Part shown: positions 3,222 through 35,219 of the stretch, piece by piece
Position numbering within the stretch: the stretch's first letter is position 1
How the letters are laid out: every line of letters begins with the position of its first letter
Notes under the pieces: model-generated
Seen by the model: the letters and a program-made list of their open reading frames with translations, nothing else
Databases searched by the model: none
What the model was told of the DNA's origin: nothing
Translations under genes and position numbers: made by a program
Source of the DNA: an uncultured Nitrospiraceae bacterium
GTDB lineage: Bacteria; Nitrospirota; Thermodesulfovibrionia; Thermodesulfovibrionales; Dissulfurispiraceae
Assembly: GCA_903822005.1 (NCBI GenBank)
Contig: CAIJNL010000042.1
Coordinates: 1-48,602, forward strand
Direction: 5' to 3'
DNA: 48,602 nt

Positions 3222-4124
3222 ATGCTGTATAGCCGGGGGATGGAAGCGTTCCTGGCAGTTGTCAGGACACGCAATGTCAGCAAGGCCTCGGAAGCTCTTA
3301 ATCTGGCACAATCAACTGTAAGTAAACGGATATTTGTCCTGGAGCAGGAAATCGGCGTTCAGTTGTTCGAGAGAGGCAAAGGTCTCAAAACCGTCGAGCT
3401 CACTCCGGCAGGAGAGATTTTTGTGGACATGGCGGAACGCTGGCTGACTCTGACCCGGGAAATGAACATCATGCTGACTCAGGGCCCGACACTGGCCCTG
3501 AATATAGGGATGCTGGACAGCCTCATTAATTCCATTTTCCCGTTCCTCTTCGAAAGACTGATCAGCCATCATTCACTTTATCGCCTGAAAATTATTACAT
3601 CGGTATCCAAAGATGCTTATGACCTGATAGAAACGCGCCAGGTGGATGTGGCCTTCAGCCTGCTGGAGAGAAACCATCCGAACATACATATGCAGCAATG
3701 TTTCACCGAGCCTCTGGTGGTTTTACGGACCGCGGCCTTTGCCCAAACTCCAACACGGATCTGGCATCCGAAAGATCTTAATCCGAGTGATGAGCTTTAC
3801 ATTACATGGGGGGTGACTTATCAGATATGGCATGATCATCAGTGGGATTTAAGACTCAACAAAGTCCAGATAAATACCGCAAATCTGGCTTTGCAGCTGC
3901 TTCGGCAGGACAGGTTGTGGGCCATAGTCCCGGAATCCATCGCAAAGAATGCCGTCTTGCGCGGAAACTTTAGCTACGGTTATCTGTCGGAACCACCGCC
4001 AAGGCGCATCGTGTATAAACTGACCCACAAATATCCCAAGGCCTCTACTGTTGAGTCTCTTAAAATCTTTGATAACTACCTAAACTGTGTGTTGGCTGAT
4101 AAATTATCGCCTGCGAAGGGCTGA
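3222..4124 (+). CDS. LysR-family transcriptional regulator
   Basis: 300 residues, the normal LysR length. The N-terminal winged helix-turn-helix covers about residues 5-65 (FLAVVRTRNVSKASEALNLA, QSTVSKRIFVLEQEIGVQLF), followed by the ligand-sensing domain, with DLIETRQVDVAFSLLE typical of its first lobe. ATG at 3222 has GAGAGG upstream; an in-frame ATG at 3240 is an alternative with a G-rich site. It is divergent from the dehydrogenase/MFS pair, which it probably controls in response to their substrate. Confidence 0.9.
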   Translation: MLYSRGMEAFLAVVRTRNVSKASEALNLAQSTVSKRIFVLEQEIGVQLFERGKGLKTVELTPAGEIFVDMAERWLTLTREMNIMLTQGPTLALNIGMLDSLINSIFPFLFERLISHHSLYRLKIITSVSKDAYDLIETRQVDVAFSLLERNHPNIHMQQCFTEPLVVLRTAAFAQTPTRIWHPKDLNPSDELYITWGVTYQIWHDHQWDLRLNKVQINTANLALQLLRQDRLWAIVPESIAKNAVLRGNFSYGYLSEPPPRRIVYKLTHKYPKASTVESLKIFDNYLNCVLADKLSPAKG

Positions 4125-5861: not shown

Positions 5862-6015
5862 TCTCTGATTTTTTGTGCCGCTATTTTCCCCCCTGATATC
5901 CAGGCTGCGGGTAGCGCATGTCAGAAAAGAATAGATATCATTGCGTCTACAATAGCATTATCGCATTGGTATTATTCGAAATTATATAATTAATTTTAAT
6001 AATAAGTGACATACA

Positions 6016-6046
6016 TGCATCAATATTGCAATAAACTGCATCAATA
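6016..6046 (+). promoter_or_regulatory. Candidate upstream activating sequence: two direct TGCATCAATA repeats
   Basis: TGCATCAATA occurs at 6016-6025 and again at 6037-6046, exactly 21 bp apart (two helical turns, same DNA face). TTGCAATA lies between them. They sit about 105-135 bp upstream of the predicted transcription start of the sigma-54 promoter, the normal place for binding of a sigma-54 activator. The PrpR-type activator at 14109-15974 is the obvious candidate binder. Binding is inferred. Confidence 0.55.
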
Positions 6047-6124
6047 AAAAGGCAATGTAAGCTGTCGCCGAAAATCCCTGCAACAGGGCTCATTCAACAT
6101 TCTGATAATTAAGGTTTTTATTGG

Positions 6125-6141
6125 TTGGCATGCTTATTGTT
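6125..6141 (+). promoter_or_regulatory. Sigma-54 (-24/-12) promoter for dctA-citDEFC
   Basis: TTGGCATGCTTATTGTT matches the sigma-54 consensus TGGCAYR-N4-TTGCW, with the -24 GG intact and only the final C of the -12 GC replaced by T. GG and GT are ten bases apart, as required. Transcription would start near 6152, about 50 nt before the carrier ATG. No comparable sigma-70 element is seen. Confidence 0.65.
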
Positions 6142-6202
6142 ATAAATAGCCCAGTAATTTTGATAGCTCATCACACGTAATCTTATATAAAAGGAGAGTG
6201 GC

Positions 6203-7504
6203 ATGGATCAGAAAAAAAGCAGGGCAGCATCTCTTTGCGGTCAGTTGTATTTTCAGGTAGTCGTCTGCGTTCTGCTCGGAATTCTCATCGGTTTCATCAA
6301 GCCTGATTGGGGAGTAGCACTTAAGCCGGTGGGCGATGCCTTTATCAAGCTCATCAAGATGCTGCTGGCTCCGATTATCTTCGGCACCCTCGTCATAGGC
6401 ATCGCAAAAATGGGCGATATGAAAGAGCTTGGACGGGTAGGCGTCAAGGCGCTCATCTATTTTGAGATCGTGTCAACGCTTGCACTTGTTATCGGTATGG
6501 TTGTTGTTAATATATGGCAGCCTGGAGTCGGGATGAATATCGATGCGAAGACTATCGACACCTCATCCATTGCGACTTACACCTCGGCTGCCAAGCAGCA
6601 GGGCGCGATCAACTTCTTTATGGACATGATCCCATCGAGCGTGGGAGATGCTTTTGTAAAGGGCAACATGCTGCAGATCATCCTTTTCGCCCTGTTGTTC
6701 GGCCTGGCAATATCCATGCTGCATGACAAGGAAAAGAAGGACACGGCGATTAAGGTCATTGATTCCCTCCTCCACGGAATGTTCGGTATTGTGAAGATGG
6801 TGATGAGGCTCGCGCCTTTGGGCGCACTGGGTGCTATGGCTTTTACTGTAGGCAAATACGGTGTTGGTTCGCTTATGCAGCTTATGCAGCTTATCATATG
6901 CGTCTACGTTACCAGCTTTATATTCATTATTTTTGTGCTCGGGTCAATCGCCTGGTACAACAAGATTTCGGTATGGAAATTTCTCGTGTATATCAAAGAG
7001 GAAATCCTTATCGCACTGGCAACCTGCTCAACGGAAGCCGTCCTGCCCCGGATGCTGGTAAAGCTCGAACAGCTTGGCTGCAGCAAATCGGTTGTCGGCC
7101 TGGTCCTGCCTACCGGGTATGCCTTTAATGCCGACGGCACGGCCATCTATATGACAATGGCAGCTATTTTTATTGCCCAGGCAATGAACATTCCATTGAC
7201 TATATGGGACCAGCTGCTTCTTCTCGGGGTCCTGCTGTTCACTTCAAAAGGATCTGCCGGCGTGGCGGGTGCCGGATTCATAACCCTTGCCGCAACCCTG
7301 GCCTCAATGGACAGTATCCCGGTTGCGGGCATGGTCATACTGCTGGGTGTTGACCGGTTTATCAATGAAGTAAGGGCACTGACGAATGTAATCGGCAATG
7401 GCATTGCAACTATCGCAGTTGCCAGGTGGGAAGGCGCTTTCGATGACAAGCGTGCATCAGATGTTCTCAACGGCAGGATAAATGTGGAGAATGATACTAG
7501 ATAG
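6203..7504 (+). CDS. dctA: DctA-type dicarboxylate/cation symporter (DAACS family)
   Basis: 433 residues with 8 hydrophobic segments and two re-entrant loops, as in DctA/GltP carriers, which couple organic acid uptake to protons or sodium. Diagnostic stretches are ALATCSTEAVLPRML (hairpin 1; E. coli DctA has a serine-rich GTSSSESALPRML here), VVGLVLPTGYAFNADGTAIY and TSKGSAGVAGAGFITLAATL. The CST in place of SSS lies near the substrate site. AAAGGAGAG precedes ATG 6203. It is the first gene of the operon with citDEFC, 42 nt before citD, so a role in moving citrate or the succinate/fumarate partner is inferred. Family members normally carry C4 acids, so citrate transport is unproven. Confidence 0.85.
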   Translation: MDQKKSRAASLCGQLYFQVVVCVLLGILIGFIKPDWGVALKPVGDAFIKLIKMLLAPIIFGTLVIGIAKMGDMKELGRVGVKALIYFEIVSTLALVIGMVVVNIWQPGVGMNIDAKTIDTSSIATYTSAAKQQGAINFFMDMIPSSVGDAFVKGNMLQIILFALLFGLAISMLHDKEKKDTAIKVIDSLLHGMFGIVKMVMRLAPLGALGAMAFTVGKYGVGSLMQLMQLIICVYVTSFIFIIFVLGSIAWYNKISVWKFLVYIKEEILIALATCSTEAVLPRMLVKLEQLGCSKSVVGLVLPTGYAFNADGTAIYMTMAAIFIAQAMNIPLTIWDQLLLLGVLLFTSKGSAGVAGAGFITLAATLASMDSIPVAGMVILLGVDRFINEVRALTNVIGNGIATIAVARWEGAFDDKRASDVLNGRINVENDTR

Positions 7505-7546
7505 CGGTGACCGTTGAGTGAATGACAGATTTTGGAGGAGGGATGT

Positions 7547-7843
7547 ATGAGCAGTTTAAAACCATCTCAGGCCGGGACGCTTGAATCCAACGACATAGTA
7601 ATTACCGTTGGACTGGGCAGCAAGGGCGAGGGCATAGTGATCGAGATGCAGAGTACGGTGTTCGCCCAGTACGGCGAGCAGATACGTAAGGTCATCGAAG
7701 ACACCGTGAAAGGCCAGGGGATAGCGGATATCTATATAAAAGCGGTAGACAGGGGAGCGCTCGACTGCACGGTGCGGGCCAGGACATTGACCGCCCTGTC
7801 GCGCGCGGGAGTGGAGATAAAGGAGGGGCAGGTATGGAGCTGA
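7547..7843 (+). CDS. citD: Citrate lyase acyl carrier protein (gamma subunit)
   Basis: 98 residues, the usual CitD size. The AGTLES segment at residues 9-14 matches the attachment site of CitD; Ser14 would carry the phosphoribosyl-dephospho-CoA arm through which acetyl and citryl groups pass. Start chosen at ATG 7547 because a near-perfect ribosome site (GGAGGAGGG, 7534-7542) precedes it; an upstream in-frame TTG at 7532 would lie on top of that site. It overlaps citE by 10 nt, so the two are translationally coupled. Confidence 0.92.
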   Translation: MSSLKPSQAGTLESNDIVITVGLGSKGEGIVIEMQSTVFAQYGEQIRKVIEDTVKGQGIADIYIKAVDRGALDCTVRARTLTALSRAGVEIKEGQVWS

Positions 7844-8703
7844 GAAGGACGTTGATGTTTGTTCCGGGCAACAGCCCCGCCATGCTCCAGAATGCGGGCG
7901 TGCTTGGCGCTGATTCGATTGTCTTCGACCTGGAAGACGCGGTTGCACCAAGGGAGAAAGATGCCGCCCGCTTCCTCGTGGGCGGAGCGCTCAGGACTGT
8001 TGATTACGGCAGCTGCGAAAAGATAGTGCGTATCAACCCGATCGACGTTTCGGCCGAGAAGGACATCGCGGCAATAGTGCCCTGCAGGCCCGACGCCCTG
8101 CTCGTGCCGAAGGTTAACTGCGCCGAGGACATTCATCAGGTGGTGAAGTGGATCGAGGCGAGCGAGGCACCGGGCCAGAAAGAGGTGAAGATCGTCGCCC
8201 TTATCGAGACGCCGCTCGGAATCTCCAACTGCTATTCAATCGCAAAGGCCCACCCGCGCATCGTTGCCATGGCCTTAGGTGCGGAAGATTATACTGCGTA
8301 TCTCGGCACGCAGCGCAGCGACGGGCCCGAAATCTATATGGCGCGCACGATGATCGTGAATGCGGCGGCAGCTGCCGGTATCCAGTCTGTGGATACGCCA
8401 TTCACTGATGTGCTGGATGACGAAGGTCTTGTTAAGGACATAGCATTCGCGAAGAAGCTTGGGTTCAAGGGGAAGATTGTTATCAATCCGCGACATGTAG
8501 ACGCTGTTCATCAGGGCTTCAGTCCGAGTGCTGCAGAGATCGAGTGGGCCCACAGGGTTGTGGCCGTCATCAAGCTGGCCGAAGACCAGGGGACCGGCGC
8601 CATTTCGCTTGACGGCAAGATGATCGACAAGCCGATCGTGGAGCGCGCCGAGAGGCTGCTGCAGCTCGCAAAGGTGCTCGGCCTGGAAGGGGGGCAGTCA
8701 TGA
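7834..8703 (+). CDS. citE: Citrate lyase beta subunit (citryl-ACP lyase)
   Basis: 289 residues of the HpcH/HpaI-CitE TIM-barrel family. CitE splits citryl-ACP to oxaloacetate and acetyl-ACP. Visible signatures: RRTLMFVPGNSPAML at the N-terminus, DSIVFDLEDAVAPREKD (acidic metal site), VRINPID, LLVPKV, ALIETPLGI and ALGAEDYTAYLGTQR. Length matches the family. It overlaps citD (10 nt) and citF (4 nt). Confidence 0.95.
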   Translation: MELRRTLMFVPGNSPAMLQNAGVLGADSIVFDLEDAVAPREKDAARFLVGGALRTVDYGSCEKIVRINPIDVSAEKDIAAIVPCRPDALLVPKVNCAEDIHQVVKWIEASEAPGQKEVKIVALIETPLGISNCYSIAKAHPRIVAMALGAEDYTAYLGTQRSDGPEIYMARTMIVNAAAAAGIQSVDTPFTDVLDDEGLVKDIAFAKKLGFKGKIVINPRHVDAVHQGFSPSAAEIEWAHRVVAVIKLAEDQGTGAISLDGKMIDKPIVERAERLLQLAKVLGLEGGQS

Positions 8704-10244
8704 TCACAAATGCAATTGGCCGGGCCGTACCGGAACAGATAGAGGGCTACGGCAGGGTAAAGCCCTTTGCAGGGGCATTCAATACCCCTCCGGACATGAA
8801 GCGGGCTGCGCCCGCAGTCAAGATGCGCCGGCCGGGTGAAAGTAAACTGCACGGCAGCCTGGAGGAGGTATTCCGGGCCATTCCTGTGAAGGACGGGATG
8901 ACGGTCTCCTTCCATCACCATTTCCGCAACGGCGACTATGTGCTGAATATGGTGCTCGACACAGCTGCAAGGCTCGGGATCAAAGACCTTACCGTGGCGA
9001 TGACCGCGCTCTTCCCGGTGCACAAGCCGCTTTTGGACCATATAAAAAACGGGGTCGTTACCGATATCACGACCAACTATATGAGCGGTCCGGTAGCGGA
9101 CGCGGTTACACGCGGCATTCTGAAAAGGCCTGTAATCATGCGCACCCATGGCGGCCGCCACAGGGCGATCGAGTGCGGCGAACTGAAGATAGATGTAGCC
9201 TTTATTGCCGCGCCTGCCTGTGATGATTACGGCAACCTGAACGGTGTAATGGGGCCGGCTGCCTGCGGGTCGCTGAGCTATGCCATGGCTGATGCCGAGT
9301 ACGCGGACCATGTAGTTGTGCTGACGGACTTTTTATGCGATTATCCCCTTTCGCCTGTTTCAATATCACAGACGAGGGTTGATTATGTGGTAAAGGTAGA
9401 TGCTATCGGAGATCCGAAAGGGATTGTTTCGGGCACCATCAGGTCGATCAAGGACCCTGTTCAGCTCAGGATTGCCCAGATGGCGGCGAATGTCATCAAG
9501 GCCTCCGGATTGATCAGGGAAGGTCTTTCCTTCCAGACAGGGGCGGGCGGCGCTACATTGGCGACCGCGCAGTACCTGAGCAAAATGATTGAAGAGGCGG
9601 GTGTGACCGCGAGTTTTTCTGTGGGCGGCACGACCAGTTTTATAGTGAACATGTTAAACAGGGGCCTGCTGCGCAAGATCCTGGACGTTCAGGATTTCGA
9701 GAGGGAACCGATTGAGTCCATAGGCAGCAATCCGAACCATCTGGAGGTAAGTGTCGACGAGTATGCAAATCCTTTTAACTCGGGCTGTATTGTCAACAGG
9801 CTCGACACCGTAATCCTCGGCGCTACGGAAATAGACATGGATTTCAATGTCAATGTTACCACCGGCTCCAGCGGCCTGATCATGGGCGGCTCGGGCGGCC
9901 ATAGCGATTCCGCGGCAGGGGCGAAACTTACGATCATCGTGGCCAATTTATTGCGCGGCCGGCTTTCAACAGTAGTGGACAAAACTCTGACGGTGACTAC
10001 GCCCGGAGAATCTGTGGACGTGCTTGTCACAGAGAGGGGCATAGCGGTAAACCCGCTGCGCAAAGACCTGCTCGAAAAGATGAAGGCCGCGGGGCTGCCT
10101 GTGAAAGAGATTGGAGAGCTCAAGGCAGAGGCAGAAAAGCTCGCTGGGGTCCCTGGCAAGATCAAGACCGGCGACCGCGCGGTTGCTGCCATTGAGTACC
10201 GTGACGGTACCATAATAGATGTAGTGAGACAGGTGCTAGATTAG
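8700..10244 (+). CDS. citF: Citrate lyase alpha subunit (citrate:acetyl-ACP transferase)
   Basis: 514 residues, typical of CitF, a CoA-transferase-like enzyme that swaps acetyl for citrate on the acyl carrier protein. Visible segments: TVSFHHHFRNGDYVLNMVLD, RTHGGRHRAIECGELKIDVA, FIAAPACDDYGNLNG, FQTGAGGATLATAQYLS and GSSGLIMGGSGGHSDSAAGA. With CitD and CitE it forms the three-subunit lyase giving acetate and oxaloacetate from citrate. ATG overlaps the citE stop by 4 nt. Nothing is truncated. Confidence 0.95.
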   Translation: MITNAIGRAVPEQIEGYGRVKPFAGAFNTPPDMKRAAPAVKMRRPGESKLHGSLEEVFRAIPVKDGMTVSFHHHFRNGDYVLNMVLDTAARLGIKDLTVAMTALFPVHKPLLDHIKNGVVTDITTNYMSGPVADAVTRGILKRPVIMRTHGGRHRAIECGELKIDVAFIAAPACDDYGNLNGVMGPAACGSLSYAMADAEYADHVVVLTDFLCDYPLSPVSISQTRVDYVVKVDAIGDPKGIVSGTIRSIKDPVQLRIAQMAANVIKASGLIREGLSFQTGAGGATLATAQYLSKMIEEAGVTASFSVGGTTSFIVNMLNRGLLRKILDVQDFEREPIESIGSNPNHLEVSVDEYANPFNSGCIVNRLDTVILGATEIDMDFNVNVTTGSSGLIMGGSGGHSDSAAGAKLTIIVANLLRGRLSTVVDKTLTVTTPGESVDVLVTERGIAVNPLRKDLLEKMKAAGLPVKEIGELKAEAEKLAGVPGKIKTGDRAVAAIEYRDGTIIDVVRQVLD

Positions 10245-10246
10245 CC

Positions 10247-11290
10247 ATGTGGGATGGTGTAATCATAAGGCAGGTCAACCTTGACAGGGAGAGCGAAGTG
10301 GCGGCCGTGCGTGCTTTTCTCGACCGCTTCTCTCTCAGGTTCGACACCTCTGTTGATTACACCATCGCGCTTTTCAAGGATGAGACCATGGTGGCTACCG
10401 GTTCGCTCTCAGGTGAGGTGCTGCGCAATTTCGCGGTAGACGAAACACTCCAGGGAGAAGGCCTCACAGCCACCATCATTTCCGAACTTATGCGCGAGGC
10501 TGGCGCCCGCGGGGTATATCACTACTTTATCTTTACACGCCCGGACAAGGCATTCCTTTTCGCTTCGCTGGGTTTTAATGAGATTGCGCGGGCAGAACCC
10601 CATGCCGCTGTTCTGGAATCCGGCATAGGATCGGTCAACCAGTACTGCGAGGACCTGATCAGGCAGACAGATTTTCTGCCGCGCCAGAACCGCGCCGCGA
10701 TTGTGGTGAACTGCAACCCGTTCACGCTCGGCCATCTTTCGCTCATAAAGCGTGCGGCGGCACAGCATAACGTTATAGTATTTGTTGTTAGTGAAGACAG
10801 ATCGCTGTTTCCTTTTGCGGACCGCCTTCGCCTTATACGGGAAGGCGTGTTCGGCCTTTCCAACGTGGCAGTCGTACCCGGAGGCAAATACATAATCTCG
10901 GCCGCCACTTTCCCCAGTTACTTCACAAGGGAGAGTGAGACTGTTGTGGCCCAGACCAGGCTGGACATCACGCTCTTTGCGACCCGCATTGCGCCTGCGC
11001 TCGGGATAAGGGCGCGATTCGTGGGCGAAGAACCCTATTGCGAGATCACCTCTGCCTATAACCAGGCCATGTCCGATATCCTGCCGTTAAATGGAATAGA
11101 GTTCAATGTAATACAGCGGGCCGATGTGGATGGAGACATTATCAGCGCTTCGAAAGTCAGAGAGGCCATTCGCAGCGCTGACTGGAAGACAGTAGAGCTC
11201 ATGGTGCCTGCGACAACCCTCGCGTATCTTACATCTGATCAGGCCAAGCCTGTAATCGAACGCATCGGGCAGACCGAGTCGCGGCATTAG
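10247..11290 (+). CDS. citC: [Citrate (pro-3S)-lyase] ligase
   Basis: 347 residues. The N-terminal half (about 1-125) is an acetyltransferase-like (GNAT) region with FAVDETLQGEGLTATIISEL. The C-terminal half is a nucleotidyltransferase-type domain whose NPFTLGH motif (157-163) is the ATP-binding site. CitC acetylates the CitD prosthetic group with ATP and acetate, switching the lyase on. It starts 2 bp after citF. The order citD-E-F-C differs from the classical enterobacterial order in which citC comes first. Confidence 0.93.
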   Translation: MWDGVIIRQVNLDRESEVAAVRAFLDRFSLRFDTSVDYTIALFKDETMVATGSLSGEVLRNFAVDETLQGEGLTATIISELMREAGARGVYHYFIFTRPDKAFLFASLGFNEIARAEPHAAVLESGIGSVNQYCEDLIRQTDFLPRQNRAAIVVNCNPFTLGHLSLIKRAAAQHNVIVFVVSEDRSLFPFADRLRLIREGVFGLSNVAVVPGGKYIISAATFPSYFTRESETVVAQTRLDITLFATRIAPALGIRARFVGEEPYCEITSAYNQAMSDILPLNGIEFNVIQRADVDGDIISASKVREAIRSADWKTVELMVPATTLAYLTSDQAKPVIERIGQTESRH

Positions 11291-12433: not shown

Positions 12434-12667
12434 ATGTCAGTACAGACAAAACGGGCTACGGTATACCTAGACCTGGAGCTGCATAAAGCGCTGCGTCTCA
12501 AGGCTGTTGAGACATCAGCGTCTGTATCGGAACTTATCAATATTGCGGTAAGAGAGTCTATTGCTGAGGATGCAGATGATTTAGCGGCATTTACGGCAAG
12601 GAGCAAAGATCCTTTGATAGGGTATGATGAGATGGTCAAAAAACTCAAACAAGATGGCCGAATATAA
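12434..12667 (+). CDS. Type II antitoxin, ribbon-helix-helix family
   Basis: 77 residues. The N-terminal RATVYLDLELHKALRLKAVETSASVSELIN segment (about 8-36) is a ribbon-helix-helix DNA-binding fold; the acidic tail (EDADDLAAF onward) would cover the toxin. AGGAGGTG lies upstream of ATG 12434. The toxin gene overlaps its 3' end by 14 nt. The palindromic operator upstream supports autorepression. Confidence 0.8.
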   Translation: MSVQTKRATVYLDLELHKALRLKAVETSASVSELINIAVRESIAEDADDLAAFTARSKDPLIGYDEMVKKLKQDGRI

Positions 12668-12911
12668 AATCTATTTTAGGCAATCTGTTGAGAAAGATTT
12701 CACGGCAATTCCACGGAGCGACCTCAGGAAAATTTTGCAGCGAATCAAATCTCTTGAAGGCGATCCCCGTCCTCAAGGTTGCGAAAAGTTAACTGGTCAG
12801 GAAAGATATCGTATTCGTCAGGGACGTTACCGGATTCTATATTCAATTCATGACAGGGATCTGGTAGTCTGGGTAGTTAAGGTCGGCCATCGTAAGGACA
12901 TTTATCGCTGA
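12654..12911 (+). CDS. RelE/ParE-family toxin
   Basis: 85 residues from ATG 12654: MAEYKIYFRQSVEKDF start, KLTGQERYRIRQGRYRILYSI core and VVKVGHRKDIYR end, all typical of RelE-type ribosome-dependent mRNA interferases. The basic residues of the Y-R-I-R-x-G-x-Y-R-I segment are the usual catalytic/RNA-binding ones, and the terminal H-R-x-x-x-Y-R motif is intact, so it is probably active. ATG 12624, further upstream, reads through the antitoxin in another frame with no ribosome site, so 12654 was preferred. Confidence 0.85.
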   Translation: MAEYKIYFRQSVEKDFTAIPRSDLRKILQRIKSLEGDPRPQGCEKLTGQERYRIRQGRYRILYSIHDRDLVVWVVKVGHRKDIYR

Positions 12912-14108: not shown

Positions 14109-15974
14109 ATGAACCGGTACCCCATACTTTTCGTTGTTCCCGCCGACCCGATGATGGATACCGTAAAGAATATCCTGAAAGAAGAAAATATAGATATCTC
14201 TGTTGCGCAGAGCGTCCTGCATGGCGATGTGGATATCGTAAGGGAATATATCGAAAAGGGGGTGGAGGTTGTCATCTCGCGTGCCGGTACCCTTCGCGCC
14301 CTTGAGGCGGCAAACATCAGCATTGCCATGGTAGAGCTGACCATTACCGGGTTTGACCTTATCGATGCCATCGAAAAAGCGAGGATACATGGAAGCCGGA
14401 TCGCTGTAGTCGCTTTCCAGTCTATGGTGCTGGGCATAGACTATGTCGCAAAGAGCCTCGGTGTTGACATCGGATATTTTTTCATAAAAGGGCGTGAAGA
14501 GATCCCGTCGGCAGTCGCGTCGGCCGCAGCACAGGGTTACGAGGTAGTGCTGGGCGGACCGGCGACTGCCGCGGCTGCGCGGGCGCACAATCTGCCGAGC
14601 GTGCTGATCGGCAGCAGCAAGGCATCGATACTGCAGGCGGTATTTGAGGCGGTAAGGGTGGCGCGTGCCATCGAAAACGAAAAATACAAGCGTGAGCTCT
14701 TTTCGGCCGTTGTTGATTATGCCAACGACGGGATCATCACTGTTGACACGGCCGGGATTATCTCGACTATCAATCCCCGGGCCGCACAGATAACCGGTTT
14801 CAGGAAGGCCATTGGCAACGATATCGATACTGTCTGGCCCGACCTCAAACTGACCAATGTGATAAAGAACAGGGAACAGCACCTTGGCCAGATAATGGCG
14901 ATAAATGGAAGACAGGTTTTCTGCAACAAGGTGCCGATAATCGTGAATAACAGGCCGGTGGGTGCTGTAGCCAATTTCCAGGAGATCACGAGGATACAGC
15001 AGTTAGAGGCCGCCATCCGCCGCAAGATTTATTCCAAGGGCCATGTGGCGAGGTTCTCGTTCAGCGATATATGGGGCACGAGCGCCGCAATCCAGAAGGT
15101 GATCAGGATCGCGAAGGATTATGCCGCGACCGAATCCAACATACTTGTAACGGGCGCGACCGGGACCGGCAAGGAGGTCTTCACCCAGTCCATGCATAAC
15201 TTCAGCCGCAGGAAAAATGGCCCTTTTGTCGCGGTAAACTGCGCCGCGCTTCCAGGACAGATACTCGAAAGTGAATTGTTCGGATATGTCAAAGGCGCAT
15301 TCACGGGAGCGAGCGAACAGGGCAAGCCGGGGCTTTTTGAACTGGCCCATGGCGGTACGATTTTCCTGGATGAGATCACCGAGCTGGATTACGCAAACCA
15401 GGGACGGCTGCTGCGCGTGCTGCAGGAGAAGGTCGTTGTAAGGCTTGGCAGCGACACGGTCACCCCCGTTGATGTGAGGATCATTGCCGCTACCAACAGG
15501 GACCTTGGACAGGCGGTCGAGGAAAAAAAATTCCGCGACGATCTCTTCTATAGACTTAATGTGCTGAAGCTGCACGTACCCACTCTGCGGGAACGCAAGG
15601 CCGACATCAGGGACTACGCGAACAAATTCCTTGCGCGGCACACTCCGCCGGGCGGTCGACCAATGTCCTTTCGTCCCGGGGCCCTCAGGCTGCTCGAAAA
15701 GTTCGACTGGCCGGGCAACATCCGGCAGCTCCAGAATACGATCGAGAGAGTCGCCGTATTGTGCAAGGAGCCCGTGATAAGCGAATCGATCATAGCGCAA
15801 TGCCTCGATATCCCTGACAGGAAGGCAGAACGGCATAATATACTGTCCAGGGAAATTGATGAGATACGGCAGGCGCTTGCAACGGCAAAGGGCAGGCAGA
15901 GCGGGGCCGCAAAGTTGCTCGGCATCAACCGCTCAACATTGTGGAGAAAGATGCAGAGGCTGGGCATGCCCTAG
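14109..15974 (+). CDS. Sigma-54-dependent activator with PrpR-type sensor domain
   Basis: 621 residues from ATG 14109, chosen because GGAGGTGAT (14095-14104) is a perfect ribosome site; an earlier ATG at 14058 lacks one. Domains: PrpR N-terminal sensor (about 5-190), PAS (195-300), AAA+ ATPase (320-545) with Walker A GATGTGKE (349-356), the sigma-54 contact motif GAFTGA (396-401) and Walker B FLDE (419-422), and a Fis-type helix-turn-helix (580-621). PrpR-type sensors bind small acids such as 2-methylcitrate. Placed between citDEFC and citXG, it probably senses citrate or a relative and drives the -24/-12 promoter at 6125. Confidence 0.9.
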   Translation: MNRYPILFVVPADPMMDTVKNILKEENIDISVAQSVLHGDVDIVREYIEKGVEVVISRAGTLRALEAANISIAMVELTITGFDLIDAIEKARIHGSRIAVVAFQSMVLGIDYVAKSLGVDIGYFFIKGREEIPSAVASAAAQGYEVVLGGPATAAAARAHNLPSVLIGSSKASILQAVFEAVRVARAIENEKYKRELFSAVVDYANDGIITVDTAGIISTINPRAAQITGFRKAIGNDIDTVWPDLKLTNVIKNREQHLGQIMAINGRQVFCNKVPIIVNNRPVGAVANFQEITRIQQLEAAIRRKIYSKGHVARFSFSDIWGTSAAIQKVIRIAKDYAATESNILVTGATGTGKEVFTQSMHNFSRRKNGPFVAVNCAALPGQILESELFGYVKGAFTGASEQGKPGLFELAHGGTIFLDEITELDYANQGRLLRVLQEKVVVRLGSDTVTPVDVRIIAATNRDLGQAVEEKKFRDDLFYRLNVLKLHVPTLRERKADIRDYANKFLARHTPPGGRPMSFRPGALRLLEKFDWPGNIRQLQNTIERVAVLCKEPVISESIIAQCLDIPDRKAERHNILSREIDEIRQALATAKGRQSGAAKLLGINRSTLWRKMQRLGMP

Positions 15975-15995
15975 CTGGCAGCCATGCCTATTTTT
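15963..15995 (+). terminator. Possible Rho-independent terminator after the activator
   Basis: GGCATG (15963-15968) pairs with CATGCC (15983-15988), followed by TATTTTT. The stem is short and overlaps the ends of two convergent genes, so this is tentative. Confidence 0.35.
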
Positions 15996-17373
15996 CGGAC
16001 CCTCTTCCGGACCATTCTTCCAGGCGGTGCAGAAACCAGGTGATCGCGAGCAGATCGGCCGCGCCGCCGGGGCTGACATTGTGATCAATGAACTGCCGGT
16101 CCAGTTCCACGGCCTTTGGACGTCCTTCTTCATTATACATCCCGCCTTCCAGCAGAAAGCTTTCAGCAAGCGGACGGACCCAGTCCAGCAATTTTTCGGG
16201 GCTGTGGCGGTTTATAACAGTGGTATCTTCGACCATCGTCATCAGCACAAACAATGTCTGCAACAGAGAGTCATTTACCGAAAGCCCGCTCTTCAGGGCA
16301 TCCCGAAGTGAGGGCAGGGCACTGTTTTTAACAGCGGGCAGACCGTCCTCCATTTCACCGCGAATGCCCCGGATGCCGTGCGAGCGAAAGAGCCTTTCAC
16401 CCGCGGTCAGCTTGCGGCCGCATGATTCCGGGAGGCGATTGAGTTCACGCTCAACAATGCCGCCCGTCATTTGTGAGGCTGCCTGGAGAACTGATGTTGC
16501 TGTAACTTTCTGATTACGGGCGTTCAGCCATCCTGTTGCGGCAACAATCACGCCCAAAGAGAAGAGCAGCCCTTTTTGGGTATTAACCCCGCCGGTTGCA
16601 TCCAGCATGGCCGACTCACCTTCAAGCCCGATAAGGCGCAAAACCGGCAGAAGTTCGGGCAGGCCTCCCTGATGCTGAATGCCCGCTTCACAGCAGCGGG
16701 CCATGGTCAGGCTTAATGCGGCTGAACTGGACATAAAAGAAAAAAAGTCCATATCACGGTGCGCGCCTGAATTTATCCTGTCCACCAGTCCGGGAGAGGG
16801 AGTACAGGCGATCTCATAGAGCATGGCTTCAACAGCAAGGAAGCCGGTTTGTTCAGCAAACGGACTGATCTTGCGGGTCTGGAATGCGAGGAATTGACGG
16901 AGCAAACCCTGCACTGCGGCCATGATTTCTTCCGCGCCATGTTTCCTTTCACGCATGCATACAGCAGCAGGAAGCTCACACAGCAGGCAGGAGCGGTATG
17001 ACCCGCTTGTCTGGCGTGAAAGCTGCCTGCCTTCAGCATCAAATACATCTATGTCGAGAAGTCTCGAAAAAGCATGCTCATCCTCAAGGCTTACAGCAAT
17101 CTGCTTAACCGCTGAGGCCCCGGACCGCACTGCCAATATTGCCTCCGGTCCGGTCGGCAGATTTACGCGCTCCATTGCGGCAATTTCGAGTCTCGCCTGC
17201 ATGGCCGAAATAGCATAGTCGCATAACTGGCGCAGCACAGGTCCGTCTTTCTCGGGTCCGGGAATATTCAGGGTGATGCTCGCAATAGCAGTACCGTACT
17301 CAGACAGCATGCGTTTCTGGCGTTTCTGCCGCTCTTCCTTCGCTGCCAGGATTTGCTCCAATGTAACAGGCAT
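15988..17373 (-). CDS. citXG: CitX-CitG fusion: prosthetic-group synthesis and transfer for citrate lyase
   Basis: 461 residues. The N-terminal CitX domain (about 1-165; MLSEYGTAIASITLNIPGPEK, SGSYRSCLLCELPAAVCMR) transfers phosphoribosyl-dephospho-CoA to CitD. The C-terminal CitG domain (about 175-450; EAMLYEIACTPSPGLVDRIN, GGVNTQKGLLFSLG, SHGIRGIRGEMEDGLPAV) makes the 2'-(5''-triphosphoribosyl)-3'-dephospho-CoA precursor from ATP and dephospho-CoA. Fused CitXG is known in several bacteria. The ATG has GGAGG upstream. It is transcribed opposite to, and separately from, citDEFC. Both domains look complete. Confidence 0.92.
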   Translation of the reverse strand: MPVTLEQILAAKEERQKRQKRMLSEYGTAIASITLNIPGPEKDGPVLRQLCDYAISAMQARLEIAAMERVNLPTGPEAILAVRSGASAVKQIAVSLEDEHAFSRLLDIDVFDAEGRQLSRQTSGSYRSCLLCELPAAVCMRERKHGAEEIMAAVQGLLRQFLAFQTRKISPFAEQTGFLAVEAMLYEIACTPSPGLVDRINSGAHRDMDFFSFMSSSAALSLTMARCCEAGIQHQGGLPELLPVLRLIGLEGESAMLDATGGVNTQKGLLFSLGVIVAATGWLNARNQKVTATSVLQAASQMTGGIVERELNRLPESCGRKLTAGERLFRSHGIRGIRGEMEDGLPAVKNSALPSLRDALKSGLSVNDSLLQTLFVLMTMVEDTTVINRHSPEKLLDWVRPLAESFLLEGGMYNEEGRPKAVELDRQFIDHNVSPGGAADLLAITWFLHRLEEWSGRGSEK

Positions 17374-17571
17374 TCAATATCCTCCGAAACTGCGTTTCAA
17401 TCTGCGATGCTTATTGTAAAAGCCAGGCATTCATAAACTGACCTGCCTGATTATACTAAATAATGTCAGCCAGGGTCGCTTTTCGGCAAACCGCAAAAAT
17501 GGCTGCTACCCCTATGCTATTATAATTCTCGTGGGGTTAATCACCCCGTTCGACTGAGAGGAGATTACAAT
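17374..17571. promoter_or_regulatory. Divergent citXG/prpF-like promoter region
   Basis: 198 bp. TATAAT at 17521-17526 is a -10 candidate for the plus-strand gene, without a good -35. GGGGTTAATCACCCC (17533-17547), an interrupted dyad, lies where transcription would start. ATGCTTATTGT (17407-17417) repeats the 3' part of the sigma-54 element at 6130-6140. Confidence 0.4.
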
Positions 17572-18732
17572 ATGGCACTATTAAGAATTCCGGCTGTTTA
17601 TATGCGCGGCGGCACCAGCAAGGGAGTTTTCTTCAGGGCCGACGCACTGCCCGCTGACCCGCTTGTAAGGGACTGCATACTTCTGCGCGTGACCGGCAGT
17701 CCTGATCCCTATGGAAAACAGATCGACGGCATGGGCGGCGCGACCTCAAGCACCAGCAAGGTCGTGCTGATATCGAAGTCCGCAAGGCCCGACTGCGATG
17801 TGGATTATCTTTTCGGTGCGGTTTCTATTGAAGCACCAGTCATAGACTGGTCGGGCAATTGCGGCAACCTCACCTCAGCGGTAGGGCCTTTTGCGATCAG
17901 CGAAGGTCTGGTCAATGCCCCTCGGGACGGGATTGCAGCGGTGCGCATCTGGCAGGTCAATATCGGCAAGCGCATAATTGCCCATGTGCCTATGAGCAAC
18001 GGCGCGGTGCAGGAAGAGGGCGATTTTGAGCTGGATGGCGTGACATTCCCTTCTGCCGAGATAAAGATTGAGTTTCTTGATCCGGGCGGTACGGAAGACG
18101 ATTCCGATGGAGGCTCAATGTTCCCGACAGGCCGCGTGATCGACCTTCTGGATGTGCCCGGCGCGGGGAAGTTTGAGGTTACGCTTATCAATGCCGGCAA
18201 CCCGACAATCTTCATGTCCGCGGAAGCCCTAGGACTGAAAGGCACAGAACTCCAGGGCGATGTCAACAATAATCCTGAACTGCTTGCGCGTCTTGAGTCG
18301 ATAAGGGCCTATGGCGCTGTTGCTATGGGTCTGGCTGCGAGCGCCGCAGATGCAACGCAGAAGCGCCCGCATACTCCAAAGCTGGCCTTTGTCTCTGCAC
18401 CGATGGAATACATCTCGTCCAGCGGTAAAAAGGTCGCAAAAGAGAGCATTGACCTTACAGCGCGCATAATGTCCATGGGCAAGCTTCATCACGCCATGAC
18501 CGGCACCGGCGCGGTAGCGATTGCGGTTGCTGCCGCAATACCCGGAACCATTGTGCAGCGCATAGTTGCAGGCCGAACAGGCGGCGGACAGGTACGCTTC
18601 GGACATCCTTCAGGCACGCTTGCTGTCGGGGCGGAAGCTTCTCAGCAGAACGGAGACTGGATAGTGACAAAGGCCATAATGAGCCGCAGTGCGAGAAAGT
18701 TAATGGAGGGGTGGGTAACCATTCCGGGATAA
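17572..18732 (+). CDS. PrpF-family isomerase (2-methylaconitate/aconitate isomerase-like)
   Basis: 386 residues, the usual PrpF length. N-terminal PAVYMRGGTSKGVFFRADAL, GMGGATSSTSKVVLI and DWSGNCGNLTSAVGPFAI are characteristic of this double diaminopimelate-epimerase-like fold. Known members move a double bond in unsaturated tricarboxylic acids (2-methylaconitate cis-trans, 3-methylitaconate, aconitate) through proton transfer by a lysine or cysteine pair. GAGAGGAG precedes ATG 17572. There is no 2-methylcitrate synthase or AcnD in the window; the neighbours are citrate lyase genes and trans-aconitate methyltransferase, so an aconitate substrate is the better inference. Confidence 0.85.
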   Translation: MALLRIPAVYMRGGTSKGVFFRADALPADPLVRDCILLRVTGSPDPYGKQIDGMGGATSSTSKVVLISKSARPDCDVDYLFGAVSIEAPVIDWSGNCGNLTSAVGPFAISEGLVNAPRDGIAAVRIWQVNIGKRIIAHVPMSNGAVQEEGDFELDGVTFPSAEIKIEFLDPGGTEDDSDGGSMFPTGRVIDLLDVPGAGKFEVTLINAGNPTIFMSAEALGLKGTELQGDVNNNPELLARLESIRAYGAVAMGLAASAADATQKRPHTPKLAFVSAPMEYISSSGKKVAKESIDLTARIMSMGKLHHAMTGTGAVAIAVAAAIPGTIVQRIVAGRTGGGQVRFGHPSGTLAVGAEASQQNGDWIVTKAIMSRSARKLMEGWVTIPG

Positions 18733-18767: not shown

Positions 18768-19541
18768 ATGAGTGACTGGAACCCGCAGCAATACCTTAAG
18801 TTCGAAAAAGAGAGGACGCAGCCCTCAATCGATCTCGTGGCGAAGATATCCATCGAAGGCCCGCGGACTATTATCGACATAGGATGCGGACCGGGCAACA
18901 GCACCCAGATCCTGCATCAGAGGTGGCCTCTCGCTGACATCATAGGTATTGACAATTCCCGGACGATGATAGAAAAAGCGCGGGCGGATTATCCTCATCA
19001 GCAATGGGAAATCAGGGACGCCGCCTGTGTTGTTCCGGGACAGACGTATGATATCGTTTTTTCGAGTGCGACACTGCAATGGGTGCCGGACCACGATGTC
19101 CTGATACCACGGTTGTATGAAATGGTAAATGACAAAGGCGTACTGGCCGTTCAGATACCGGCCAATATCGAATCCCCTTTTTTCAAGATAATGTTAAAGG
19201 TGGGCGGAAACGCCAGGTGGGGCGCATACACGAAGGGCTGTGAAAAGCTGCTGACTTACCACCCTGCTGAATATTATTACAATAAGCTCAGTTCGTTAAC
19301 GCAGGACATAGATTTGTGGAAAACCTCATATTTCCATGCCATGAGGTCTCACAAAGACCTGACGGCCTGGCACAAGAGCACCGGCATGAGGCCCTTTCTC
19401 GAAAAATTGCCGGATGACAAAGCGAGGGAAGAATTCGAAAATGAAATAGTGGATGAGTGCAGGGCAGCCTATCCGGTGCAGAGTGACGGTAATATCCTCT
19501 ATATCTTTGAGAGGCTGTTTTTCATAGCGGGGAAAAAATAA
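18768..19541 (+). CDS. tam: Trans-aconitate 2-methyltransferase
   Basis: 257 residues, matching Tam. MSDWNPQQYLKFEKERTQPS at the N-terminus, the SAM-binding TIIDIGCGPGNSTQIL (about 34-49), IDNSRTMIEKARADYP, and SATLQWVPDH are all close to the E. coli enzyme. Tam methyl-esterifies trans-aconitate, a side product of cis-aconitate that inhibits aconitase. It starts 35 bp after the PrpF-like gene with TGAGGAG upstream of the ATG, so the two are probably one operon dealing with aconitate isomers. Confidence 0.92.
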   Translation: MSDWNPQQYLKFEKERTQPSIDLVAKISIEGPRTIIDIGCGPGNSTQILHQRWPLADIIGIDNSRTMIEKARADYPHQQWEIRDAACVVPGQTYDIVFSSATLQWVPDHDVLIPRLYEMVNDKGVLAVQIPANIESPFFKIMLKVGGNARWGAYTKGCEKLLTYHPAEYYYNKLSSLTQDIDLWKTSYFHAMRSHKDLTAWHKSTGMRPFLEKLPDDKAREEFENEIVDECRAAYPVQSDGNILYIFERLFFIAGKK

Positions 19542-26383: not shown

Positions 26384-26552
26384 GTTTTCCTTAGAATAGT
26401 TGCATTCAGGGCAAATCGTTAAATGGGGCATTAAGTTTCAATATGCGCATTATTCAGAAGTCACAACTTGTAGCTTGTTCTTAAATTAAGCATACTATTA
26501 TATATCCGGTGCCGACTTAAAGGGTGTCTAATCTAAGTGGGAGGGATTATTG

Positions 26553-27638
26553 ATGCCGACAAATGCTGAGTTGCTTAAAACACTTAGAGAACGTTTCTTG
26601 CGCGGTGATATATTAGAAGAAGAGTATAAAGCAATCAGGGCAGGTCTTTTAGGCGAAATGCCATTTCTTTATTTCGATCCAGAGTATGTTGATAATGATC
26701 GTTGCAGAAAAGATGAGATTATAATAGAGGCTGAGGAGTGTGCTGACAGTATAGGCGATTGGACTGCTTGTGCATTTAAATGGGAGGAACTGGGCGAAAA
26801 GCGCGAGGTGCGCAGATGCATGAAGATGGCTGAGGAGAGGGCTGAAAACCCAAAAGATTGGACTGACTGTGCATTTACATGGAAGGAACTGGACGAAGAG
26901 CGAGAGGTGCGCAGGTGCATGGGGATGGCTGAGGAGTGTGCTGACAGTATAGGTGATTGGACTGACTGTGCATCTACATGGAAGGAACTGGGCGAAGAGC
27001 AAGAGGTGAGCAGATGCATAAGGATGGCTGAGGAGAAGTCTGAAAACTCAAAAGATTGGACTATTTGCGCATCTCACTGGAAGGAACTGGGAAAAGAGCA
27101 AGAGGCACGCAGGTGCATTGGGATGATGGCTGAGGAGAAGGCTGAAAACTCAAAAGATTGGGCTATCTGCGCATCTCACTGGAAGGAACTGGGAAAAGAG
27201 CAGGAGGCGCGCAGATGCATGGGGATGGCTGAGGAGAAGGCTGAAAACTCAAAAAATTGGGCCGACTGTGCATTTACATGGAAGGAACTGGGAGAAGAGC
27301 AGGAGGCACGCAGATGCATGGGGATGGCTGAGGAGCGGGCTGAAAACTCAAAAAATTGGAGTAGTTGTGCATTTGGGTGGAGCCAGATAGGGGAGGAGCA
27401 GGAGTTTCGGAGATGTCTATGGATAGCTGAGGAGAAGGCTGAAAACACAAGCGATTGGATTCGTTGCGCAATTTGGTGGGATGGGCGAGATGAGCAGAAG
27501 GCGCGCAGGTGTATGGGGATGGCCGAGGAGAAGGCTGAAAACTCAAAAGAGTGGACTATCTGCGCATCTCAATGGAAAGAACTAGGCGAAAAACAGGAGG
27601 CGAACAGGTGTGAGAAAAAAGCAAAAACATTTACGTAG
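26553..27638 (+). CDS. Protein of nine 33-residue W/C helical repeats with SHOCT-like N-terminus
   Basis: 361 residues from ATG 26553, with GGGAGGG upstream. Residues 5-34 (LLKTLRERFLRGDILEEEYK) resemble a SHOCT oligomerisation motif. Residues 60-356 are nine near-identical units of about 33 residues: AEEKAENSKDW, xxCAxxWKELG, xEQEARRCMGM. Each unit predicts two helices with conserved W, C, A, W, L, R, C, like TPR or Sel1 solenoids but not fitting either consensus well. Unit 4 has one extra residue, unit 8 one fewer. About two cysteines per unit and no signal peptide suggest a cytoplasmic, possibly metal- or thiol-bearing scaffold. No function recognised. Confidence 0.75.
   Translation: MPTNAELLKTLRERFLRGDILEEEYKAIRAGLLGEMPFLYFDPEYVDNDRCRKDEIIIEAEECADSIGDWTACAFKWEELGEKREVRRCMKMAEERAENPKDWTDCAFTWKELDEEREVRRCMGMAEECADSIGDWTDCASTWKELGEEQEVSRCIRMAEEKSENSKDWTICASHWKELGKEQEARRCIGMMAEEKAENSKDWAICASHWKELGKEQEARRCMGMAEEKAENSKNWADCAFTWKELGEEQEARRCMGMAEERAENSKNWSSCAFGWSQIGEEQEFRRCLWIAEEKAENTSDWIRCAIWWDGRDEQKARRCMGMAEEKAENSKEWTICASQWKELGEKQEANRCEKKAKTFT
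26730..27620 (+). repeat. Nine tandem 99-bp coding repeats
   Basis: Units start at GCTGAGGAG and are 99 bp long (102 in unit 4, 96 in unit 8). Neighbouring units are strikingly similar as DNA, which indicates recent slippage or recombination and predicts copy-number variation between strains. Confidence 0.85.
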
Positions 27639-29131: not shown

Positions 29132-30577
29132 TCAGGGTTGGCTGTTACTCTCTGAAATCCTTCCCAGTTCATCAATCACCTTCTGCAACCCTTCCGCAGA
29201 AGTAATAAGGCACCTCCAAGCCTCTCCGCCAAAAGCATCCGCCTGCTTATCTATCCATTGCAAAAATAGGGACGGTTCTCCGAAGACCTCGATACCCTTC
29301 ATCATGGCGAGTTTAAAGCGTATCCTGTAAGCCCGTTTTGCTTCATCCGGGACTTTTTGCTCGATTACAGTAAGCTCCATATTCATTTTAGTAGCGAAGT
29401 CTTCGCACTGCTTATATTTTTCTGTTTCAACGAGTGCGGCAATATCCTGCCCCAGCCCGATCTCTTTGTTCATGGCCACAACATCAGCAATATCCTGCAT
29501 GATCTCCAGTTTTCTGTTAATTACTGTTTTTGCCATAGATCGGACAGCAGCCTTTTTGCGATAGCCATAGCCCTGCGACACGCTGCGGCCGATGTCTTCG
29601 ATTTTGGCAGTGACGCAGCTCCTGCAATGGGCCGGCGTATCGCCAACGCATATCTTGCCCGGATAGAGCGCGTACAGCCTGCGGTAATCACCCTCTGTCA
29701 CATTGGGCATGATAACATTGGCCCCGCTCTGGAGCCCCAGCATCCTGCCGTTCTCATTCAGCGCTTCCATGGCAGTAGTGGCAGGTATGTTAATGTCCGG
29801 CATCAGCAGGCGCGTAATGGCCATGACCTTTAAACTCAGCTCAAACGTGCCGCCAGTTGCATCACCCAGCGGTGTGTCCGAGTTTGGAATAAATGGCCCA
29901 ACGCCTATCATATCTGCACCAAGCTCTTTAAAAAAAAGTATGTCATCAGCAAGTGATTCCATTGTCTGGCCTGGCAGGCCGACCAGACAGCCGGTGCCAA
30001 GTTCGTACCCAAGTTCCTTCAGATCATGCAGGCAGCGCACCCGGTTCTCAAAGATCATGCCGGGGCTCATCTTCTCATACAGTTTTTTATCAGTCGTCTC
30101 GATCCGCAGCAGATAACGGTCAGCCCCTGCATCACGATATGCCTGGTACTCTTCACGTGTTTTTTCACCAATGCTTAGCGTTATCGCAACATCGAGCGCC
30201 TTGATGGATTTGATTATCTGCAGCATCTCTTCACGCGAATAGAATTCACCTTCACCTGCCTGCAATACTACTGTCTTGTATCCGTCGCTAGCTGCCTTTG
30301 AGGCAAATTCGATTATAGTCTCTGGTTCAAGGCGATAGCGTTCAAGTTTGACATTGTCCTGGCGCAAGCCGCAGTAGAGGCAGTTCTGGGAACAGCAGTT
30401 GGTAAACTCGATCAGGCCGCGGAGATGGACTTCGTCGCCGACAAATTGCTTCCTCACCCGGTCAGCTGCCGCAAACAGTTCAGCATCATGCTCATCAGTC
30501 TTCAGCAGCTCAACAATCTCTTGCCTTGTAAGGTCGTGTTTTGTCTCGGCTTTTTTGATGATATCAATAACCGCCAT
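29132..30577 (-). CDS. hydE: [FeFe]-hydrogenase maturase HydE (radical SAM) with C-terminal extension
   Basis: 481 residues. Radical SAM cluster C62-x3-C66-x2-C69 (CCSQNCLYCGLR) and the optional second cluster C310-x7-C318-x2-C321 are as in HydE. HydE acts on the HydG-made Fe(CO)2(CN)cysteine synthon while the H-cluster di-iron unit is built. Characterised HydE proteins have about 350 residues; here residues from about 355 on (some 125) form an extra, mainly helical domain I do not recognise. It starts 1 bp after the hydF stop, last in the hydG-aspA-hydF-hydE operon. Confidence 0.93.
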   Translation of the reverse strand: MAVIDIIKKAETKHDLTRQEIVELLKTDEHDAELFAAADRVRKQFVGDEVHLRGLIEFTNCCSQNCLYCGLRQDNVKLERYRLEPETIIEFASKAASDGYKTVVLQAGEGEFYSREEMLQIIKSIKALDVAITLSIGEKTREEYQAYRDAGADRYLLRIETTDKKLYEKMSPGMIFENRVRCLHDLKELGYELGTGCLVGLPGQTMESLADDILFFKELGADMIGVGPFIPNSDTPLGDATGGTFELSLKVMAITRLLMPDINIPATTAMEALNENGRMLGLQSGANVIMPNVTEGDYRRLYALYPGKICVGDTPAHCRSCVTAKIEDIGRSVSQGYGYRKKAAVRSMAKTVINRKLEIMQDIADVVAMNKEIGLGQDIAALVETEKYKQCEDFATKMNMELTVIEQKVPDEAKRAYRIRFKLAMMKGIEVFGEPSLFLQWIDKQADAFGGEAWRCLITSAEGLQKVIDELGRISESNSQP

Positions 30578-30578
30578 A

Positions 30579-31826
30579 TTACTTTTTCTTCATCGCTTCG
30601 CGGCCTGCCCGATAAACTTCAAGGGCAGCAGGGAAGGGCTCGAGCGCCCGCTCAAATATGCCGAGGCTGTATGCAATGGCAAGCCCGTAGTTGGTTATGG
30701 GCACGCCCAGTTCATTGCACTTCCGTATGCGGTTGGACATCTCGCGGCGGTTCATGGTGCAGGCTCCGCAATGGATCACGAGCTTAAAGGTAGTCAGGTC
30801 TTCAGGGAAGTCATGGCCCTGGTAATGGACGAAATCGAGTTTACCGCCAACATATTGCGTAAGCCAGCGCGGTATCTTTACCCTGCCTATGTCTTCGCCA
30901 ATGGGATGGTGCGTGCAGGCCTCGGCAATGAGAACACGGTCCCCGGTCTTCAGCTTCTCAACAGCCATCGCGCCTTCGACCTGTTTGACCAGGTCACCTT
31001 TGTATCTCGCAAAGAGGATCGAGAAACTGGTGAGAGGGATATTTTTCGGAACGTCTGCAGTCACTTTAAGGAATGCCTGCGAGTCGGTTATGACGAGCTT
31101 TGGCGGCACCTTCAGGCGGTCGAGAGCTGACCGCAGTTCGCGTTCCTTTACGACCATGCAGAAAGAGTCGCTGTCAAGGAGATCGCGGATCGTCTGCACC
31201 TGCGGCAGGATCAAACGCCCCTTTGGCGCTTCCTTGTCAATGGGAACCACGAGGATCGCCATCTCGCCCGGGCCTACAAGGTCACCCGCTATTGCTGGCG
31301 GCTCCAGGCATTCAGGCGGAACACTTGCAAGCATGGCCTGGCGCAATGCATCAAGGCCTGTGCCGGTCAAAGCGGAAACCGGAACAGTCAGACTGCGGTA
31401 TTGCTCAGGCACGAACGCGGGCTCGTCGCCCGGTGCCGCAGTATCCGATTTGTTGATTACGATGACAACCGGTATGCTCCTGCTCGAAACCTCTTCAGCA
31501 AGCTGATCTTCATACTCGCCCCATATGCCTGGCTCTGTAACGAGCACAGCAATATCAGTACGGTCAAAGACCTGCCGGGTCTTTTCGATCCGCAGACCGC
31601 CGAGTGCGCCGATATCATCGATGCCGGCTGTATCAATAAATACAATCGGGCCGAGGGGCTGAAGCTCCATGGGCTTCTCGACCGGATCAGTGGTTGTGCC
31701 CGCAACGTCAGAGACAATCGAGACCTGCTGTTTTGTGAGCGCGTTCAAAAGGCTCGATTTGCCTACATTGCGGCGGCCAAAGATGCCGATGTGGATCCGT
31801 AGTCCTTTGGGGGCTGGCTGCATCAT
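30579..31826 (-). CDS. hydF: [FeFe]-hydrogenase maturase HydF (GTPase scaffold)
   Basis: 415 residues. N-terminal GTPase: P-loop GRRNVGKSS (17-25), DTAG (65-68) and NKSD (125-128). The dimerisation domain follows, then the C-terminal cluster domain with C304-x-H306 and H352-C353-x2-C356, the CxH...HCxxC ligand motif. HydF carries the di-iron precursor and hands it to the hydrogenase apoprotein. All ligands are present. Adjacent to hydE and aspA. Confidence 0.95.
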   Translation of the reverse strand: MMQPAPKGLRIHIGIFGRRNVGKSSLLNALTKQQVSIVSDVAGTTTDPVEKPMELQPLGPIVFIDTAGIDDIGALGGLRIEKTRQVFDRTDIAVLVTEPGIWGEYEDQLAEEVSSRSIPVVIVINKSDTAAPGDEPAFVPEQYRSLTVPVSALTGTGLDALRQAMLASVPPECLEPPAIAGDLVGPGEMAILVVPIDKEAPKGRLILPQVQTIRDLLDSDSFCMVVKERELRSALDRLKVPPKLVITDSQAFLKVTADVPKNIPLTSFSILFARYKGDLVKQVEGAMAVEKLKTGDRVLIAEACTHHPIGEDIGRVKIPRWLTQYVGGKLDFVHYQGHDFPEDLTTFKLVIHCGACTMNRREMSNRIRKCNELGVPITNYGLAIAYSLGIFERALEPFPAALEVYRAGREAMKKK

Positions 31827-31867
31827 ATATTAAACTCCTGACAGGTGAAGGATTATAAAACGATTTG

Positions 31868-33274: not shown

Positions 33275-33297
33275 GGCTTCTTATATTCTAACCTCTG

Positions 33298-35150: not shown

Positions 35151-35219
35151 AATTATAATAGGTATTTCTTGTCATTATTATGTTTAGCGCCGATCAACTG
35201 CCAATACAGGAGGAATTAA

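Follow-up and report, generated by a model that had tools for sequence, protein, structure and literature searches.

Predicted sigma-54/PrpR-type control of a citrate lyase operon in an uncultured Nitrospiraceae bacterium

Citrate-linked activation of citDEF-type genes is carried out by CitAB, CitO, and CitI (PMC6193673). CitAB is a two-component system, CitO is of the GntR type and CitI of the DeoR type, and none of them works with sigma-54. A stretch of 48,602 nucleotides from an uncultured Nitrospiraceae bacterium, analyzed here as a whole and referred to as the window, raises the question of whether a citrate lyase operon may instead be controlled by a one-component sigma-54 activator. The initial annotation had proposed that citrate fermentation in this organism is switched by an activator of this kind upon direct binding of a tricarboxylate.

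The genes of the operon are arranged in the order dctA, citD, citE, citF, citC with short gaps or overlaps between them (Table 1). With the CitX-CitG fusion, found 4.7 kb away on the opposite strand, the locus holds all four cit genes as well as a source of CitX and CitG, although CitE scores below its equivalog cut-off. The true start of citD is probably the ATG behind GGAGGAGG near 7541-7547. The DctA-like protein is the sole transporter within the operon, and we saw no gene for oxaloacetate decarboxylase in the cluster, so that citrate fermentation, the process named in the initial annotation, is a predicted role.

Table 1. Positions of genes and candidate regulatory elements at the cit locus, numbered from the first nucleotide of the window.
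Feature	Position	Strand	Remarks
Candidate activator half-site 1, TGCATCAATA	6016..6025	+	Core GCATCA 6017-6022, 110 bp 5' of the -24 GG
Candidate activator half-site 2, TGCATCAATA	6037..6046	+	Core GCATCA 6038-6043, 89 bp 5' of the -24 GG
Candidate sigma-54 promoter, TTGGCATGCTTATTGTT	6125..6141	+	-24 GG 6127-6128; -12 GT 6139-6140
Extended -10-like element, TGTTATAAA	6138..6146	+	TG-N-TATAAA read directly; overlaps the sigma-54 element; rival sigma-70 reading
dctA-like symporter, first operon gene	6203..7504	+	NF002461, 604 bits (cut-off 513)
citD, citrate lyase acyl carrier protein	7532..7843 (ORF limits)	+	TIGR01608, above cut-off
citE, citrate lyase beta subunit	7834..8703	+	TIGR01588 best match, 309 bits, below cut-off 443; position within citDEFC
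citF, citrate lyase alpha subunit	8700..10244	+	TIGR01584, 650 bits (cut-off 501)
citC, citrate lyase ligase	10247..11290	+	TIGR00124, 307 bits (cut-off 262)
PrpR_N-PAS-AAA+-Fis-type HTH sigma-54 activator	14109..15974	+	ORF opens 14058; probable start at ATG 14109, behind GGAGG
CitX-CitG fusion, makes and attaches the citrate lyase prosthetic group	15988..17373	-	TIGR03124 and TIGR03125, above cut-off
prpF, methylaconitate/aconitate isomerase family	17572..18732	+	TIGR02334, 582 bits (cut-off 441); PDB 2pvz, E=2e-156
Trans-aconitate 2-methyltransferase-like (Tam-like) gene	18768..19541	+	NF002463, 272 bits, slightly below cut-off 297

Apart from the organism's own copy, CitF was found in none of 60 relatives, 230 genomes of the class, and about 395 sampled genomes of the phylum, which suggests that it was gained by transfer or else lost in the other lineages. 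A foreign origin of the contig is unlikely, since a PilQ-like protein encoded on it is closest to that of a genus-mate (60%). The nearest CitF relatives in a pattern scan belong to Clostridia (57-58%). With CitF found only in this genome, phylogenetic footprinting of the cit promoter is impossible. No ortholog with the same dctA-cit gene arrangement was found, and none of the loci examined in 12 relatives has a sigma-54 activator, prpF, or dctA beside cit. The three closest relatives whose DNA upstream of citD was read have no repeat pair there. A possible match of a Lachnospiraceae activator to a cit locus was dropped, as the contigs differ in length.

The coordinates originally given for a -24/-12 element upstream of dctA are exact, but the element, which sits 61 bp before the dctA start, departs from the strict form of GG at -24, GC at -12, and 10 bases between. 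TTGGCATGCTTATTGTT has the GG and the correct spacing, with GT in place of the GC that is nearly invariant at -12 of sigma-54 promoters. Matching to a generic sigma-54 consensus gave no excess over chance (13 found versus 15.7 expected), and a matrix trained on this genome was therefore needed. We built it from 15 other candidate sites, comprising 12 apparently noncoding matches to TGGCA-N6-TTGCW and 3 promoters adjoining PrpR_N activators, a small set of our own assembly, with scores that serve as a guide and not as a probability. The TGGCA-N6-TTGCW pattern is enriched fourfold in the genome (28 matches versus 7 for a reversed-pattern control), and its matches include sites before glucarate and galactarate operons beside PrpR_N activators, while enrichment of the GT form, TGGCA-N6-TTGTW, is not clear (18 versus 13 for the reversed-pattern control). 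With this matrix, for which the training sites have leave-one-out scores of 11.4-22.3, the site at 6125 scores 17.2 bits and ranks second among 97,170 window positions. Since only 4 of 2000 shuffles also reached this score, the site stands above chance. By matrix score the element looks like a sigma-54 promoter, yet it fails the strict form. The consensus in clostridia is TTGGCATNNNNNTTGCT (PMC6615313).

The same DNA can also be read as a sigma-70 promoter with TGTTATAAA as its extended -10, in which case the upstream TGCATCAATA repeats would bind some other regulator, such as the LysR protein encoded at 3222-4124. The TG-N-TATAAA sequence and the absence of GC at -12 both fit this reading, as does TGCA-N7-TGCA at 6016-6030, which has the partial symmetry that LysR sites often show, and the LysR gene is 2 kb upstream. 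However, the -35 at 17 bp spacing is poor, with 2 of 6 matches, and falls below listing in the promoter scan, and the LysR gene and dctA are not divergently oriented and have two genes between them. The high rank of the sigma-54 score and the recurrence of GCATCA upstream of the sigma-54-like promoters in other PrpR_N operons also argue against sigma-70 control, which we consider unlikely.

The two identical copies of TGCATCAATA lie 21 bp apart at 6016 and 6037, exactly as first annotated. Allowing up to 3 mismatches, this pair is the sole match in the 3.23-Mb genome, and in 2000 dinucleotide shuffles of 5862-6202 an exact 10-mer repeat at 21 bp arose once; on these two grounds the pair is above chance. 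Less specific repeats arose more often, with 27 shuffles having an exact 10-mer repeat in helical register within 120 bp and 216 (about 11%) having an exact 10-mer repeat of any kind. This last figure, together with the 14 genomic copies of lone TGCATCAATA, which is thus not rare singly, would fit a repeat pair that arose by chance in AT-rich intergenic DNA and plays no part in cit control. Such an origin is nonetheless very improbable given the rarity of the 21-bp pair among shuffles and the presence of its core word in two more promoters associated with the same type of activator. Neither the repeat pair nor the -24/-12-like element is overwhelming when taken alone.

The candidate regulator encoded downstream has the features of an enhancer-binding protein (PF00158, 226 bits; PF02954, 43 bits), and the intact GAFTGA motif credited to it can be read in the translation as ESELFGYVKGAFTGA. 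A PrpR_N domain is present (124 bits), but scores against the PrpR equivalogs are below the cut-offs (357 versus 499 and 330 versus 703 bits), so that we refer to it as a PrpR_N-type activator and not as PrpR proper. Its context is likewise one of cit, prpF, and tam-like genes, not a prp operon. Past the activator are the CitX-CitG fusion, PrpF, and Tam-like genes, all missing from the initial annotation, which had also placed the activator 2 kb from citC where we measure about 2.8 kb. Between citC and the activator are a HAD-like gene followed by a RelE-like toxin and a probable antitoxin. The toxin-antitoxin-like pair occupies a low-GC stretch (12434-12911). TGATGC occurs at 14078 and 14101, where the activator gene begins, with one of the two copies between the ribosome site and the ATG, and self-regulation is possible.

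Sigma-54 activators usually adjoin their targets, and most targets have several upstream sites (PMC6615313). A matrix scan of the intergenic region 17374-17571 found no high-scoring sigma-54 site, and the only remaining strong site in the window, at 35134, precedes a hydrogenase-like cluster. That site (TTGGCATATTTATTGCCA, 35134-35151, 20.3 bits) has the highest sigma-54 score in the window. The gene set after it has, judged by eye, the look of an electron-bifurcating hydrogenase, and HydE/HydF/HydG-like genes lie on its other side (29132-34704). Further upstream, an ORF of 362 aa (26550-27638) consists of near-identical repeats of about 34 residues, e.g., AEEKAENSKDWTICASHWKELGKEQEARRCMGM.

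The genome encodes 10 PrpR_N proteins, and the majority of the PrpR_N activators whose surroundings were read adjoin transport or catabolic genes. One is found beside glucarate dehydratase and a D-galactonate-family transporter, another beside galactarate dehydratase, and the closest paralog of the cit activator (49% identical, on contig C2) adjoins a DASS transporter and a homoaconitase-type hydratase. In the wider family, matches to the cit activator at E 1e-100 occur in 2 of 30 other genomes, and the genus-mate has none. The sigma-54-like sites of the glucarate and galactarate operons are TGGCACAATACTTGCT and TGGCATGCATATTGCT, respectively; between the galactarate and cit sites there are two mismatches.

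Comparison of the cit, glucarate, and galactarate promoters, which are few, showed that, of the GC-rich 6-mers they all contain, GCATCA/TGATGC is the most frequent, with 6 copies in total versus 3 for the runner-up and 0.73 expected from the genome background. Some common GC-rich 6-mer reached 6 copies in 14 of 2000 shuffles, and GCATCA itself did so in none. The exact word is absent from the four other PrpR_N-linked promoters used as controls, one of which, that of the 49%-identical paralog, has the variant TGACGC. This distribution is matched in the recognition helices, which read INRSTLWRKM (cit), INRSTLYRKL (glucarate), and MNRSTLYRKL (galactarate), while S or D replaces the N of this helix in the four control activators. 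GCATCA pairs 8-22 bp apart occur only 4 times in the 220 kb examined, 3 of them in the glucarate and cit promoters. These GCATCA figures somewhat overstate the case, since the word had already been spotted when the shuffle test was run, the 8-22 bp range was chosen post hoc, and much of the 220-kb sample came from around PrpR_N genes. A half-site spacing of 21 bp is found in both the cit and the glucarate promoters, and the full set of spacings is 21 in cit, 10 and 21 in glucarate, and 16 in galactarate, where a variant word is involved. In cit the half-sites form direct repeats, in the glucarate and galactarate paralogs their orientation is mixed or inverted, and no dyad geometry common to the three promoters could be settled by eye. 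This in-genome comparison is the best support for sigma-54/PrpR-type control.

The abundance of PrpR_N proteins also means that the sigma-54 promoter could be served by, or jointly with, another of them, for example the glucarate, galactarate, or 49%-identical activator, a reading to which the sharing of GCATCA half-sites and the similarity of the recognition helices lend some weight. These paralogs, however, adjoin catabolic genes of their own, whereas the local activator gene is found among cit and aconitate genes with no other likely sigma-54 target nearby, which makes service by another activator quite unlikely. We link the local activator to cit on the grounds of its position, the shared motif, and the lack of another target. 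Counting against a sigma-54 promoter under the local activator are the GT at -12, the overlapping extended -10, the 2.8 kb from citC with the toxin-antitoxin-like pair between, the differing half-site orientation in cit and its paralogs, and the small number of promoters compared. Overall, sigma-54/PrpR-type control of dctA-citDEFC is predicted to be likely, with a probability of roughly 0.7. The sigma-54 and local-activator part of the original proposal is thus supported by the promoter score, GCATCA sharing, matching recognition helices, and absence of another nearby target; its other part, direct sensing, did not gain the same support.

The PrpR_N domain alone cannot name the ligand, because paralogs carrying it adjoin glucarate and galactarate dehydratase genes, and these paralogs suggest sugar-acid ligands. 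The PrpR of Salmonella is activated by 2-methylcitrate (PMC4987338), while that of Xanthomonas did not respond to 2-methylcitrate in binding tests (PMC12153269). PrpF is present in some prp operons (PMC4987338, PMC5690661), and the Shewanella PrpF isomerizes trans- and cis-aconitate (PMC5690661). Since citXG, PrpF, and the Tam-like gene adjoin the activator and the Shewanella PrpF acts on aconitates, the neighborhood reads as a tricarboxylate module. A tricarboxylate (citrate or cis/trans-aconitate) is a good guess for the ligand on the basis of the PrpF and Tam-like neighbors, and its direct sensing by the PrpR_N domain is plausible.

In the mechanism that we propose, dctA-citDEFC would be transcribed from the sigma-54 promoter with a start near 6152 and would be silent without an enhancer-binding protein. 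The PrpR_N domain of the local activator would bind an intracellular tricarboxylate or a close product, most likely citrate or aconitate. The protein would occupy both TGCATCAATA sites, which face the same side of the helix some 110 and 131 bp ahead of the start, and in its ligand-bound form its AAA+ domain would remodel the sigma-54 polymerase via the GAFTGA loop. The sequence elements, the identities of the genes, and the sharing of the half-site within the genome are observations, whereas sigma-54 use, activator binding, and the ligand are what we infer. The full combination of local activator, tricarboxylate signal, and sigma-54 promoter is predicted to be fairly probable.

The predicted system resembles Salmonella PrpR and prpBCDE in its PrpR_N sensor, AAA+ domain with GAFTGA, Fis-type HTH, and sigma-54 promoter (here predicted), and in the class of its effector, as 2-methylcitrate is also a tricarboxylate (PMC4987338). 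It differs in its predicted target, a citrate lyase with a DctA-like carrier, and in its enhancer word, TGCATCAATA here versus CGTTTCATGAAACG in Salmonella prp (PMC4987338). The nearest precedent for sigma-54 control is CitP of Clostridiales, likewise a predicted sigma-54 activator, in that case of the transporter gene citA (PMC6615313, Table 1); this is a prediction only, labeled "Transporter" and without citrate lyase genes, and the likeness noted here is in its described role. In Bacillus velezensis, TarR and tarAB provide inducible use of another tricarboxylate, trans-aconitate, with a PrpF-superfamily isomerase, but TarR is of the LysR type, and citrate lyase and sigma-54 fall outside the tarAB system as described (PMC11495376). 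No report of sigma-54/PrpR or enhancer-binding-protein control of citrate lyase or citrate fermentation was found in the open-access literature, and the papers that combine RpoN/sigma54 with citrate lyase are mostly genome papers, with no such control described in those consulted.

If true, this control logic would be unlike that of CitAB, CitO, and CitI, in that the cit operon would stay off until a small-acid-binding activator hydrolyzes ATP at a distant promoter. More tentatively, paralogous PrpR_N activators in this lineage may read variants of GCATCA with diverged sensors, one of them running a citrate lyase operon as a one-component citrate/aconitate sensor. The glucarate and galactarate paralogs in the same genome would allow sensor specificity and DNA-site specificity to be compared side by side, and PrpR_N would then be a flexible organic-acid sensor with a range well beyond 2-methylcitrate.
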